Under the pieces are notes generated by a model. It made no database searches. It had not been told where the DNA came from and worked only from the letters and a program-made list of their open reading frames with translations. From Planktothricoides sp. SR001 (GTDB lineage Bacteria; Cyanobacteriota; Cyanobacteriia; Cyanobacteriales; Laspinemataceae), in contig NZ_LIUQ01000002.1 in assembly GCF_001276715.1 (NCBI RefSeq), positions 144,093 to 208,092 of the forward strand: a stretch of DNA of 64,000 bases, read 5' to 3'. Below are positions 13,136 through 52,390 of the stretch, piece after piece; within the stretch, counting starts at the first letter, position 1, and every line of letters begins with the position of its first letter. Position numbers and translations under genes: made by a program.

Positions 13136-14791
13136 ATGTTTTGCGAACAATGCGAACAAACAGCCAGCGGACAAGGATGCCACCAATGGGGCGCTTGTGG
13201 CAAAAGTCCAGAAGTCAATGCGGTTCAAGACTTATTAATCTATCTCTTGCGTGGACTTGCTCCCGTGGCAATCCGAGCGAATCAATTGAGTATTTCCACT
13301 CAGGAAATCGATCGCTTTACCTGTGAAGCTATCTTTGCCACCATGACCAATGTTAACTTCGATCAACATCGGTTTACGGATTATATTCGACGGGCGATCG
13401 CATACCGGGAAAACCTGAAAAACCAAATTGAACAAGCCACGGGTGCCACGGAAAACTGGTCAACAATTTCCTGTTTTGAGCCTGATTTTGAGGACAGTTT
13501 ATCCGCCCAAGGGGAAGATATCGCCCTGAAATTTATCAGCCAATCTGGTGCAAATGTCGATATTTTTTCCCTCAAATTAACGGTACTGTATGGCATTAAA
13601 GGCGTTGCTTCCTATGCCTTTCATGCTCAAGAAATGGGGCAGGAAGACGATCGCATTTATCAATTTTCCTATGAAGCCCTCGCCGCTTTAGAACGCCAAG
13701 ACCTCACCCTCGATGATTGGCTGAAACTGGCGCTAAAAGTTGGCGAAATTAATCTGCGGACGATGGAATTGCTTGATGCTGGACATACCGGCACTTTTGG
13801 TCATCCCGTCCCCACACCCGTTCCCCTGAATGCCAAAGTAGGCAAAGCAATTCTCGTTTCCGGTCACGATATTCCCCAACTGGAAGCGGTGCTCAAACAA
13901 ACCATGAACAAGGGAATTACTGTCTACACTCATGGGGAATTATTGCCCGCCCACGGTTATCCCCACCTGAAACAAAACTACCCTCATTTTTATGGGCATT
14001 ATGGCACCGCATGGCAAAATCAAACTAAGGATTTTGCTAAGTTCCCAGGGGCGATTATTATTACCACCAATTGTTTAATGCCGCCCCACGAAAATTATCA
14101 GAATAAATTATTTAGCCTTGGACCCGTTGGCTATCCCGGATTGAATTATATTCCTAATGGTCTTGATGGACTGCCGGACTTTTCCCCCGCAATTAATAAA
14201 GCTTTAGAGTTACCCGGATTTACGGAAGCAACCGAACCTCGTCAGGTGACGACTGGTTTCGCCCGAAATGCGGTTTTGAGTGTGGCCGATCGCGTCATTG
14301 AAGCGGTGAAAGCGGGACAAATTCGCCACTTTTTCCTAGTTGGTGGCTGTGATGGGGCAAAACCCGATCGCAACTATTACACCGAACTGGTGGAAAAAGT
14401 CCCCAGTGATTGTGTGGTGCTCACCCTCGCTTGTGGCAAGTTCCGTTTCTTCGACCAAAATTTAGGCGATATTGGTGGCATTCCCCGCTTATTGGATGTG
14501 GGACAATGTAATGATGCATATTCAGCGATTCAAATTGCGATCGCCCTAGCCAATGCGTTTAATGTGGGGGTGAATGAATTGCCCTTATCCATGATTTTGT
14601 CCTGGTATGAACAGAAAGCGATCGCGGTCTTACTCACCTTACTTTATCTAGGAATTCAAGATATTCGCTTAGGCCCAACTTTGCCCGCATTTTTATCACC
14701 TAATGTGTTGAAATTGCTATCGGATACATATCATATTAAACCCATCACTACACCGGATGAAGATTTAGCCGCTTGTTTGGCTAAGGTTTAA
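13136..14791 (+). CDS. hcp: Hydroxylamine reductase (hybrid-cluster protein)
   Basis: 551 aa. Hcp reduces hydroxylamine in vitro and is linked to nitric-oxide and nitrosative-stress defence. The N-terminal cysteines C3, C6, C15 and C21 (spacing C-X2-C-X8-C-X5-C) bind the iron-sulfur cubane. Hybrid-cluster ligands are visible in SGHDIPQLE, TTNCLMPP, LVGGCDGAKPDR and LTLACGKFRF. Length is as usual for the family. AGAGGA lies before the ATG. The upstream palindrome suggests control by a CRP/FNR-type regulator that responds to NO or redox state. Not in an operon: repeats follow directly. Confidence 0.97.
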   Translation: MFCEQCEQTASGQGCHQWGACGKSPEVNAVQDLLIYLLRGLAPVAIRANQLSISTQEIDRFTCEAIFATMTNVNFDQHRFTDYIRRAIAYRENLKNQIEQATGATENWSTISCFEPDFEDSLSAQGEDIALKFISQSGANVDIFSLKLTVLYGIKGVASYAFHAQEMGQEDDRIYQFSYEALAALERQDLTLDDWLKLALKVGEINLRTMELLDAGHTGTFGHPVPTPVPLNAKVGKAILVSGHDIPQLEAVLKQTMNKGITVYTHGELLPAHGYPHLKQNYPHFYGHYGTAWQNQTKDFAKFPGAIIITTNCLMPPHENYQNKLFSLGPVGYPGLNYIPNGLDGLPDFSPAINKALELPGFTEATEPRQVTTGFARNAVLSVADRVIEAVKAGQIRHFFLVGGCDGAKPDRNYYTELVEKVPSDCVVLTLACGKFRFFDQNLGDIGGIPRLLDVGQCNDAYSAIQIAIALANAFNVGVNELPLSMILSWYEQKAIAVLLTLLYLGIQDIRLGPTLPAFLSPNVLKLLSDTYHIKPITTPDEDLAACLAKV

Positions 14792-14800
14792 CAAATACCC

Positions 14801-15220
14801 GTAGGGGCGAAGCATTTCGGCTGATAAATTATTGATGAAAACCATAACTTATATACCGAAATGCTTCGCCCTCCCAATAATACCGTAGGGGCGTAGCATT
14901 TCGGCAGATAAATTATTGGTGAAAAGCCATAACTTATATACCGAAATGCTACGCCCTCCCAATAATACCGTAGGGGCGTAGCATTTCGGCAGATAAATTA
15001 TTGCTGAAAACCAGTAACTTATATACCGAAATGCTTCGCCCTAGTCTAAGATAAAAACTACACCGTTTTTCAGATTAATGAACCGCGATCGGGCGAAGCA
15101 TTCCGGTATTTAATTTAATATTTTCAGTATTGTAGGGGCGAATGGCCATTCGCCCCTACACTGCCGGAATGCTTCGCCCCTACAGATATTTCTGGTTGAC
15201 TCGCGGAGAAAATTGCTGTA
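14801..15220. repeat. Block of three ~85-bp long-hairpin repeats plus palindrome
   Basis: Units start at 14801, 14885 and 14970. Each has a left arm like GGGGCGAAGCATTTCGG, about 40 nt of loop and a right arm like CCGAAATGCTTCGCCC. A conserved tail follows with the palindrome GTAGGGGCGAATGGCCATTC near 15133-15160 and an end resembling the right terminal repeat of the element at 15572-15929. It begins only about 10 nt after the hcp stop, so the left end may be missing. Confidence 0.8.
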
Positions 15221-15268
15221 GGATTTGAACTTGTCAAACTTGTCAAAATTGTGCAAAAGTTAAAACCT

Positions 15269-15508
15269 ATGATCGCGATATCTTTTCAAGATATTATAGA
15301 ATCGATTGAACAACTTTCGATTGACGATCAAAATTACTTGTTTGAACTCATCCAAAAAAGAAGAATTGAAAAGCGACGTTTGGAGATTGCTGCCAATGCC
15401 AAAGCGACTTTAGATTCTGTAAAACAGGGAACGGCAAAAAAAGGGACTATCGATGATTTAATGGCCGATTTATTGGGTGATGAAGATGATGAAGATAGTT
15501 TGGGATAA
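15269..15508 (+). CDS. Antitoxin of a RelE/ParE-type module (small helical protein)
   Basis: 79 aa: MIAISFQDIIESIEQLSIDD opening, a basic helix KRRIEKRRLEIAANAK, then an acidic tail DLLGDEDDEDSLG. This is the common cyanobacterial partner of RelE/YafQ-like toxins. ATG 15269 is preferred over GTG 15251 because family members begin at this point. Its 3' end overlaps the start of a truncated toxin gene by 20 nt. Without its toxin it is probably an orphan antitoxin. Repeat blocks of the same family lie on both sides. Confidence 0.75.
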   Translation: MIAISFQDIIESIEQLSIDDQNYLFELIQKRRIEKRRLEIAANAKATLDSVKQGTAKKGTIDDLMADLLGDEDDEDSLG

Positions 15509-15590
15509 TCATTTTAAACGGGCGTTTAAAAAAATTGTCAAAAAAAATCCCGATTTTCAGGAGAGGATGACTACAGCTATTTTCTATTGA
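15489..15590 (+). pseudogene. Truncated RelE/YafQ-type toxin
   Basis: 33 codons starting MKIVWDNHFKRAFKKIVKKN, the N-terminus of cyanobacterial RelE/StbE-type toxins (normally ~90 aa). After about 27 codons the sequence runs into the terminal inverted repeat of the element at 15572-15929 and soon meets a stop. The catalytic C-terminal part is absent, and no continuation was recognised beyond the element. Confidence 0.75.
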
Positions 15591-15929
15591 ATCTACCACA
15601 AAGCATCTGTAGGGGCGAAGCATTTCGGCAGATAAATTATTGCTGAAAACCAGTAACTTATATACCGAAATGCTTCGCCCTTCCAATAATACCGTAGGGG
15701 CGAAGCATTTCGGCAGATAAATTATTGCTGAAAACCAATAACCTATATACCGAAATGCTTCGCCCTAGTCTAAGATAGAAATTACAGCGTTTTTCAGATT
15801 ACTGAACCGCGATCGGGCGAAGCATTCCGGTATTTAATTTAATATTGTAGGGGCGAATGGCCATTCGCCCCTACGGAATGCTTCGCCCCTACAAATCATT
15901 GTGGTTTATTTAATAGAAAACCGCTGTAA
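15572..15929. mobile_element. MITE-like element with ~55-bp terminal inverted repeats
   Basis: The left end TACAGCTATTTTCTATTGAA (15572 on) matches, inverted, the right end ending TAGAAAACCGCTGTAA (to ~15929), and the similarity runs about 55 bp inward to GTAGGGGCGAAGCATT. Inside are two ~85-bp hairpin units (15609, 15694) and the GGCCATTCGCCCC palindrome. No ORF, hence non-autonomous. It interrupts a toxin gene. Related fragments lie at 14801-15220, 50390-50466 and 52281-52390. Confidence 0.65.
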
Positions 15930-28487: not shown

Positions 28488-28690
28488 TTTGTCCACTAAA
28501 TTTGGTCACTAAACTTGTCTACTAAATTTGTCCACTAAACTTGGTCACTAAATTTGTCCACTAAACTTGTCCACTAAACTTGTCTACTAAACTTGTCTAC
28601 TAAACTTGTCCACTAAATTTGTCCACTAAACTTGTCTACTAAACTTGTCTACTAAACTTGTCCACTAAATTTGTCCACTAAATTTGTCCA
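28488..28690. repeat. 13-bp tandem repeat array, ~15 copies
   Basis: Units alternate among TTTGTCCACTAAA, CTTGTCTACTAAA and TTTGGTCACTAAA. The array fills the divergent promoter region between the rodZ-like gene and truB. Variants are mixed along the array, as happens with slippage and unequal exchange. Confidence 0.9.
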
Positions 28691-39889: not shown

Positions 39890-40135
39890 GTTGACAGTTG
39901 ACCGTTGATAGTTAACAGTTAACAGTTGACCGTTGACCCCCGTCTGCACGGAGGCTGACCGTTCATCGTTCACCCCTGTCCTTAGTCCTTAGTCCTTAGT
40001 CCTTAGTTGTTAAGTCTAATGACAAGTGACAAGTAACCCTTGACAGTGAACAGTGAACAGTTAACAGTTAACAGTTAACAGTTAACCAGGAACGGTGAAC
40101 CAGCAACGGTGAACCAGGAACGGTGAACCGTCAAA
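39890..40135. repeat. Low-complexity short repeats upstream of petC
   Basis: Runs of GTTGACCGTTGAC/GTTAACAGTTAACAG, CCTTAGTCCTTAGT and GGAACGGTGAACCAG. No gene in 39762-40197. This kind of sequence-degenerate spacer is typical between genes in this genome. Confidence 0.8.
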
Positions 40136-43210: not shown

Positions 43211-44185
43211 ATGACTGCGCCTTTAATTTCCGTGATTATTCCCACCTATAATCGTGAAGATGCCCTACGAGACAGTATTGCGGATGTACTCAAGCAAGAC
43301 TATCCCAATTTTGAGGCGATAGTCGTTGACCAAACCGCTACTCATAAACCAGAGATTCAACAGTATTTAGAAGAAATGTCTAATCAGGGAAAAATTCGCT
43401 GGTTTAGAGTGAACTGGGCCAGTTTACCTGGGGCGCGAAATTATGCAGTTCGTCGGGCAAAAGGCGAGATTATTCTATTTATTGATGATGATGTGCAGTT
43501 GCCAGAAAACTTTCTAGCCAACCATGCCAAAAACTATCAAGACAACCCCGAAATAGGCGCGATCGCTGGTCGAGTTTTTGACCGAATGAAACTAACCGAT
43601 TCTCAGGGAAATTTAATCATAGAACAACTGCCCCCGGAAGCAATGGATCCGGGAATTGCTTGGTATTATATTGATTTAGTCCATACGGTAAAACCCCAGC
43701 AAGTCCTCTCTGCCAGAGGCTGCAATATGTCGTTTCGCCGGGAAATATTTACGCAGCATGGACTCAAATTTGATGAGCGATTTAGAGGGTCTGCGGTGCG
43801 CGAAGAGTCTGATTTTTGTCTGCGGTTACGGTCAACAGGATATAAAATATGGTATGACCCAGAAGCCCATTTAGTTCACCTGGGAGAAGAGACGGGCGGA
43901 TGTCACGATATTAGCACAAAATCTTGGCAATATCAGATTACTTTTTATCACAATCATTTCTTTTTAGGCTTAAAAAATCTCACCTGTTCTCAATGTGTCC
44001 GCTTTTTTGCCCGGTTATTTGATTGTCATGTCCTGGGTCATCCCCCTTGTAATAAAAGTGGTTCACCGCTAAAAATGTTGGTGCGGGGTTTTTTTTATAC
44101 CCTGGGTTTTTTCAGTGCAGTTGGCACTCAAATCAAATCTCTCTGGAATGATGGGCAAATTTATACTAAGGAAGATAAGGAATAA
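43211..44185 (+). CDS. Glycosyltransferase family 2
   Basis: 324 aa GT-A-fold transferase that uses a nucleotide sugar. PLISVIIPTYNREDALRDSI at the N-terminus, IVVDQT, GARNYAVRRAKGEIILFIDD and the metal-binding DDD/DXD-like DDDVQ; EESDFCLRL provides the likely catalytic ED. A C-terminal amphipathic region may touch the membrane. First of three plus-strand glycosyltransferases (43.2-46.9 kb), suggesting surface polysaccharide synthesis. Acceptor unknown. Confidence 0.93.
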   Translation: MTAPLISVIIPTYNREDALRDSIADVLKQDYPNFEAIVVDQTATHKPEIQQYLEEMSNQGKIRWFRVNWASLPGARNYAVRRAKGEIILFIDDDVQLPENFLANHAKNYQDNPEIGAIAGRVFDRMKLTDSQGNLIIEQLPPEAMDPGIAWYYIDLVHTVKPQQVLSARGCNMSFRREIFTQHGLKFDERFRGSAVREESDFCLRLRSTGYKIWYDPEAHLVHLGEETGGCHDISTKSWQYQITFYHNHFFLGLKNLTCSQCVRFFARLFDCHVLGHPPCNKSGSPLKMLVRGFFYTLGFFSAVGTQIKSLWNDGQIYTKEDKE

Positions 44186-44225
44186 TTGATAATTGATAAT
44201 TGATAATTGATAATTGATAATTGAT
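44184..44225. repeat. TTGATAATTGATAA tandem repeat
   Basis: About five copies of ATAATTGAT directly after the GT2 stop, followed by CAACCAACAACAACC low-complexity DNA to about 44360. No gene in the gap. Confidence 0.8.
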
Positions 44226-44373
44226 GATTATTCTTTAATAGTTATTAATTATTTTCCCCAACTAACAACCCCCCCAACCCCCCCGTCAACCGCCATCGGG
44301 CAAGCAACAACCAACAACAACCAACCAACAACCAACAACAACCAACAACCAACAACCAACCAATAATAAAATT

Positions 44374-52280: not shown

Positions 52281-52390
52281 TACAGATGGGCGAAGCATGG
52301 CCGTAAAAAATTCACGTTTCTAACCCATCGAACTTCTGCGGTCATGCTTCGCCCCTACCAATATCTGTGGTCTATTCAATCGAAAACAAT
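52281..52390. repeat. GGGCGAAGCATG hairpin with MITE-like right end
   Basis: Left arm GGGCGAAGCATGGCCG and right arm CGGTCATGCTTCGCCCC, followed by CTGTGGTCTATTCAATCGAA, which matches the terminal repeat of the element at 15572-15929. Confidence 0.65.

Follow-up and report, generated by a model that had tools for sequence, protein, structure and literature searches.

Compensatory base changes between the two arms of a hairpin are usually taken to prove that an RNA structure is functional. The small dispersed repeats of cyanobacteria were reportedly described by Elhai in 2008 as short mobile repeats. PMC3733652 divides GTAG-tagged REPs into 24 families, of which GTAG-12, -15 and -16 are cyanobacterial, with stems of 6-13 bp (most of 6-9 bp), units of 20-40 bp and mostly short loops, and it describes sub-families of GTAG repeats whose stems have alternative complementary residues. 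Compensatory changes across REPIN hairpins are reported as common in PMC3116915. Two further papers concern template switching, by which hairpins are argued to be maintained (PMC8794818) and of which arm homogenisation and spacer inversion are given as outcomes (PMC8604942).

In the window, a stretch of 64,000 nucleotides from the genome of Planktothricoides sp. SR001 (contig NZ_LIUQ01000002.1), three tandem hairpin units with start-to-start spacings of 84 and 85 nt are located after a gene of the Prismane/CO dehydrogenase family according to Pfam (13136-14791). The earlier note had proposed that both arms changed together between unit 1 and unit 2 (A to T and T to A) and that unit 3 combines the new left arm with the old right arm, and the arms do read in this way. 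At stem position 6, unit 1 has A(14810)-T(14866); unit 2 has T(14894)-A(14951), a two-sided change at a position that is A-T in the relative's ortholog; and unit 3 has T(14979) opposite T(15036), a mismatch that is kept in the predicted fold and represents the half-changed state. The folding z-scores of units 1, 2 and 3 are -7.9, -8.6 and -7.2, and, when up to 2 mismatches are allowed, the window contains 16 matches to the arms, against 0.23 expected from shuffles. Units 1 to 5 (Table 1) have GTAG at one end only. No tRNA or Rfam family was reported in the window. The corresponding locus of a same-genus relative (G001) has the same three tandem units, is devoid of the 238-nt duplication and the nested palindrome, and is A-T at position 6 in all three orthologous units; therefore A-T is ancestral at this position. 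The T-bearing arms are three adjacent ones, namely both arms of unit 2 and the left arm of unit 3, and their sequence, GGGCGTAGCAT, occurs 5 times in the 7.07 Mb genome (3 times in the array and 2 elsewhere), with 2 occurrences of the reversed control.

Table 1. Hairpin units and associated repeat features, in positions of the window
Feature	Position	Strand	Details
Hairpin unit 1	14801..14872	+	GTAG tag 14801-14804; arms 14805-14820 / 14856-14871; loop 35 nt
Hairpin unit 2	14885..14957	+	arms 14889-14904 / 14941-14956
Hairpin unit 3	14970..15042	+	arms 14974-14989 / 15026-15041
Hairpin unit 4	15609..15681	+	stem-loop 15613-15680; A-T at position 6; loop identical to that of unit 3
Hairpin unit 5	15694..15766	+	stem-loop 15698-15765; A-T at position 6
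238-nt duplication	14885-15122 (first copy), 15609-15846 (second copy)		copies 94% identical; units 4 and 5 in second copy
MITE-like element	15058..15221	.	degenerate terminal inverted repeats of TTACAGCGGTTTTC type, 3 mismatches at left end
Reverse-oriented hairpin	15091..15183	-	TCCGG-type arms; CTAC end 15180-15183; palindrome nested in loop
Nested palindrome GTAGGGGCGAATGGCCATTCGCCCCTAC	15132..15159	.	missing from relative's ortholog
Second MITE-like element	15782..15929	.	right half matches the relative's single MITE
Reverse-oriented hairpin in second MITE	15815..15892	-	nested palindrome 15847-15874 at a different loop position
Further family unit	52288..52354	-	GGCCG and GACCG arms; CTAC at right end

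The first MITE-like element of Table 1, identified by reading and by alignment to the relative, has the reverse-oriented hairpin as its core; it is too degenerate to figure among the end pairs counted below. The two copies of palindrome GTAGGGGCGAATGGCCATTCGCCCCTAC occupy differing positions within their hairpin loops, and five units with the nested palindrome have loops of exactly 55 nt, as if it replaced 8 loop bases. Similar elements with TTACAGCGGTTTTC-type ends, often ~142 bp long, were noted at L112:9303, L127:12955 and other loci, and their cores appear interchangeable, being mostly the hairpin and sometimes other palindromes. A hairpin is enclosed by 22 of the 26 TTACAGCGGTTTTC-type end pairs, in a sample biased toward this outcome since the DNA was fetched around hairpins, and with one overlapping pair. 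The ends are degenerate, and the exact MITE pattern had 0 matches genome-wide; no clear target-site duplication was seen at L117:1531 or L108:782. Between the two array copies (15251-15600) are an ORF of 85 aa with no Pfam match and then a short truncated ORF, both missing from the relative's locus; together they may be what is left of a toxin-antitoxin pair. Elsewhere in the window, at 28489-28690, 39890-40129 and 44182-44360, there are tandem arrays whose units are 13 bp or mostly 7 bp long.

The units belong to a family of GTAG-tagged, non-coding stem-loop repeats dispersed through the genome. Each consists of a 5'-GTAG, a stem made up of paired 16-bp arms and a G-T contact at the tag, an AT-rich loop and usually a final T; the outer 11 bp of the stem (GGGCGAAGCAT) are nearly fixed except at position 5, and the inner 5 bp vary as matched pairs. 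The units come from the surroundings of listed hits and from portions of a few contigs rather than from whole genomes. In a set of 150 units taken from 1.34 Mb fetched around known hits, the GTAG is at the left end only in 65, at the right end only (as CTAC) in 64, at both ends in 13 and at neither in 8, that is, at exactly one end in 129. A larger set comprises 244 units after removal of 20 duplicate rows. Oriented counts omit the units with no decidable tag end (17 of 150 and 20 of 244), and nested long-loop units are omitted from the counts of arm types, gene context and loop pairs, from the shuffles of the 224 and 45 units, and from the forest. Among the 133 tag-oriented units, T follows the far arm in 110, the loop is 35 nt long in 71 and 34 nt in 35, and it starts with CAG in 89. 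Units lie inside ORFs of at least 90 aa in 27 of 244 cases, by a crude ORF caller.

The exact tagged-unit pattern has 238 matches (128 + 110) in the 7.07 Mb genome, symmetric units being counted on both strands, and 130 (63 + 67, symmetric units likewise counted twice) in G001. Arm GGGCGNAGCATTYCGG occurs 239 + 247 times in the 7.07 Mb genome with up to 1 mismatch, and its reversed control not at all. The tagged 20-mer, with up to 1 mismatch, is present in 7 of 39 genomes: 256 copies in the genome of origin (G000), 133 in G001, 33 in G002 and 1-3 in each of four others. A search of phage and plasmid collections with one 75-nt consensus at E values up to 0.001 gave no match. Other very frequent 16-mers in the fetched G000 regions, TCAATTAATATCCCCA (217), CCCCACTCGTTGGGGA (149) and GTTTCAATCCCTAATA (110), possibly belong to hairpin or CRISPR-type arrays.

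As with the GTAG REPs of PMC3733652, the family has GTAG at one end, is dispersed, lies mostly outside genes with enrichment between convergent genes, and has alternative complementary stem residues. It differs from them, by comparison of the published lengths, in its stem of 16-17 bp and its loop of ~35 nt. GTAG REPs can flank a RAYT gene (REPtron); here, no arm was found beside a Y1 gene (0 of 17 loci). The family resembles the REPINs of PMC3116915 in having two conserved 16-mers inverted around a spacer and a comparable overall length (in GI, the 16-mers start 71 bp apart); however, REPINs are symmetric, being two inverted REPs, whereas this family is one-end tagged in the great majority of the 150 units. 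Each end of a REPIN is a full REP; here, by reading, GACCG-type arms are not individually palindromic. Hairpins subject to template switching (PMC8794818, PMC8604942) would also yield matched multi-base changes in two arms together with spacer inversion; those published are in RNA genes and yeast coding sequences, and in the GTAG family the arms match, but only one locus has a clear loop inversion. A literature search by sequence words gave unrelated results among the 15 of 286 matches listed, and the family may still have been described. Compensatory changes have been published before for repeats of this sort, and the family is a long-stem variant of the GTAG repeats that differs in stem and loop length and for which no transposase was found.

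A single array of three units is insufficient to prove covariation, but in the set of units from two genomes, the larger sample in which the earlier note had asked for covariation to be sought, the arms are matched far beyond chance. Arm mismatches number 128 in the 224 tagged units of both genomes, compared with 449.9 (sd 12.7) in shuffles, and 45 in the 45 units whose loops are separated by more than 10 edits, compared with 115.8 (sd 6.0); in the 150 units there are 85, compared with a mean of 246 when right arms were shuffled (minimum 216 of 5000), related units not being independent in these counts. Stems are free of mismatches in 159 of 244 units, the other 85 having at least one, and there are 13 internally matched types of inner arm. 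When the partner arm was slid by 1 to 3 columns as a control, paired cells fell from 96.9% to 36-48%. Positions with two-sided changes were only slightly separated by this control (9 of 16 in the true alignment and 5-8 of 16 in the slid ones), and pair types numbered 27, compared with 18-25 after sliding. The 45-unit set had 8 two-sided positions against 4-7 and 17 pair types against 10-21, which is no separation for pair types.

The arms of closely related units differ mostly on one side. The 256 pairs of units with a loop distance of up to 4, which overlap heavily, comprise 99 with the same arms, 98 with one-sided changes, 48 with two-sided changes in which both units are fully paired, and 11 others. 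A forest based on loops, with ties broken in favour of similar arms, has 157 edges, of which 63 are one-sided and 35 two-sided, against 10.3 two-sided expected if arms were independent; this excess is concentrated at loop distances of 5-6. Among edges with a loop distance of at most 2, 3 are two-sided (1.6 expected) and 28 one-sided; among those of at most 4, the numbers are 7 (2.6 expected) and 44, so on recheck the closest units have no clear excess of two-sided changes. Comparison of orthologs by eye gave about ten one-sided changes and, in unit 2, a single two-sided one. Because close relatives and orthologs differ mostly on one side and matched two-sided changes appear mainly at larger distances, the arms seem usually to change one at a time, with the match restored later. 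Near-identical loops can nevertheless bear different matched arms: at a loop distance of 1, one unit has TCCGG/TCCGG and another GACCG/GACCG, and a tandem array has G/G and A/A at position 5, also at a loop distance of 1. Orthologs at L083/L261 and L098/L229 differ by multi-base switches of one arm, and 9 of the 224 tagged units are half-changed, with GACCG/TCCGG arms. A half-changed unit, L113:10977, is common to both genomes.

With a probability of roughly 0.45, we consider the family to be a mobile REP/REPIN-like hairpin that carries a GTAG tag and regains the match of its stem in two steps, partly through arm-to-arm copying of DNA. The element would be moved or copied by some enzyme; a change would arise in one arm, usually the arm on the GTAG side, and would then be transferred to the partner arm through template switching during replication or through repair within the hairpin. 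In the array, ancestral A-T stems would have acquired an A to T change in an arm on the tag side, which produced the mismatch that unit 3 retains, and transfer to the partner arm would have given the matched T-A stem of unit 2; the simplest path may be one tag-arm mutation, one partner transfer and an exchange between tandem neighbours. The earlier note had left the choice between selection for pairing, as RNA or DNA, and repair copying between arms. The matching of arms on which both depend was borne out, RNA pairing is disfavoured by the even orientation of units to genes (see below), and copying gained support, though not as a fast process. Copying is favoured because the multi-base switches of one arm between orthologs and the half-changed GACCG/TCCGG units are not made by single point mutations, because near-identical loops bear different matched arms, because the change from A-T to T-A lacks a wobble intermediate, and because the T arms are local, being confined to three adjacent arms. 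Against it, no event was caught with both parent and product, the half-changed unit L113:10977 has been retained in both genomes, and the predominance of one-sided changes among close relatives argues against fast copying. Copying thus explains the matching of arms somewhat better than does the preservation of an RNA, but the evidence is not decisive between selection for pairing and copying.

Template switching was also considered through its effect on loops. At a single locus, the loop of L103:5568 is inverted with respect to those of L103:5925 and 6235, relative to a clear tag and with 3 edits. Loop inversion was rejected as the main evidence of template switching, since most of the 77 flipped-loop pairs rest on one-base differences in tag calls; 5 pairs remain when tag calls differ by at least 2 bases and 2 when they differ by 3, both from one locus. 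An identical flipped pair (L084:6939 and D42:82906) was discarded because it is a nested copy found at a single orthologous locus, the loops running in the same genomic direction. Template switching would leave a tract copied from the partner arm and an inverted spacer between a parent and a derived sequence; what was observed is matched switches across units and, at one locus, clearly inverted loops, but no parent-derived pair combining the two marks.

A stronger version, in which changes would arise in the arm next to the GTAG and pass from there to the partner by copying, the tag arm being the donor in one-directional rewriting during replication or transposition, appears unlikely to us. 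The position-5 A variant (G-to-A) is in the tag arm only in 29 of the 224 tagged units, in the other arm only in 1 and in both in 14 (28, 1 and 10 when tag calls differ by at least 2 bases), and the tag arm prevails by 5 to 0 in the 45-unit non-redundant set. The GACCG/TCCGG chimeras among the 224 tagged units divide 8 to 1 by tag side, one-sided changes that separate closely related units, at loop distances of up to 4, favour the tag arm by 33 to 11, and unit 3 has its T in the tag arm. The skew is greatest at position 5 (21 to 6 when all forest edges are counted). Three clear ortholog differences at position 5 are all at the tag arm, and a fourth, in the L096/L264 array, falls at the opposite end of a decayed unit and is ambiguous in alignment. 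The skew at position 5 could result from polarised copying or from better tolerance of the resulting wobble pair on the complementary strand.

The close rival of copying is selection for the DNA hairpin as the substrate of a trans-acting tyrosine transposase (Y1/RAYT-type) or another transposase, as proposed for REPs and REPINs, whereby matched hairpins would multiply and second-site mutations restoring the match would be favoured; we regard it as possible but doubtful. The one-ended GTAG tag is like that of the GTAG repeats in PMC3733652, Y1 transposase genes exist in the genome of origin, and early one-sided followed by later two-sided changes are what slow compensation predicts. The family also bears signs of mobility, in the form of filled and empty sites between the sister genomes, tandem amplification and mutual nesting. 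A unit at L108:782-845 in G000 is absent from G001, and this insertion has at most 1 nt of ambiguity; L107:7857 is filled in G000 where G001 has a stretch of ~12 nt; L117:1531 (G000) and L282:2647 (G001) are composite insertions; L084:6939 is nested in the loop of a second unit, where eight bases have been replaced; and the copy number of the L107:8973 array differs, 3 versus 4. Few empty sites could be aligned by contig-wide synteny because the two genomes are rearranged. However, a Y1_Tnp search of 7 genomes, own genome included, Y1 being the transposase type searched for, had matches in four (G000, G001, G013 and G026) and none in G002, G004 or G031, and an arm was found in the fetched flank of none of the 17 Y1 loci, each of 2.4-3.4 kb with the match inside. 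G002 has 33 arm copies yet no Y1 match, two Y1 genes of the genome of origin are placed among AGAAACCSGGTTTCT palindromes instead, and the multi-base switches of one arm do not correspond to point mutations. Those two Y1 genes (G000 C143:6508-6834 and C144:12676-13002, at L063 and L062), embedded in AGAAACCSGGTTTCT palindrome arrays, resemble the REP-transposase associations of a different repeat family (Pfam was checked for the C144 protein). An insertion sequence with the arms as its ends was considered and rejected; two pairs of unpaired arms were found 0.5-3.5 kb apart, one of them with ORFs that resemble a putative toxin-antitoxin pair and the other with no ORF listed.

Selection for the pairing of a transcribed RNA hairpin, a stabiliser of mRNA 3' ends or a terminator, with ordinary compensatory mutations, is a decidedly improbable explanation. 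The folds are very stable, and by the crude ORF caller 72 of 186 units fall between convergent genes, an enrichment over the background (290 of 1293 gaps), and few fall between divergent ones (19 of 186). The convergent-gene enrichment is reported for REPs too (PMC3733652) and does not favour an RNA of one strand. In co-directional contexts the orientation is even, with the tag strand sense in 50 cases and antisense in 45 (same crude caller), at least one mismatch is present in 85 of 244 units, a half-changed unit is kept in both genomes, and no Rfam match was obtained in the window. The changes from A-T to T-A and from TCCGG to GACCG lack a wobble intermediate, and strand-specific RNA selection is disfavoured by the even orientation to genes together with this wobble-free A-T swap. 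A G·U bias was rejected as a sign of RNA, wobble mismatches being found on both strands and only position 5 being strongly skewed. Inheritance alone, with a few founding arm types spread along with the units so that covariation needs no pairing constraint, is highly improbable: units clearly multiply, and in 197 of the 256 close-loop pairs the arms are the same or only one of them differs, but it is already contradicted by several cases of near-identical loops with different matched arms, and the matching persists in the 45 units with dissimilar loops.

Thus, the family adds a long-stem relative, with no transposase found, to the GTAG repeats of cyanobacteria. Its many dispersed copies of one hairpin in unchanged, half-changed and fully changed states, together with a sister genome, are usable to ask how often the matching of arms arises at the level of DNA.
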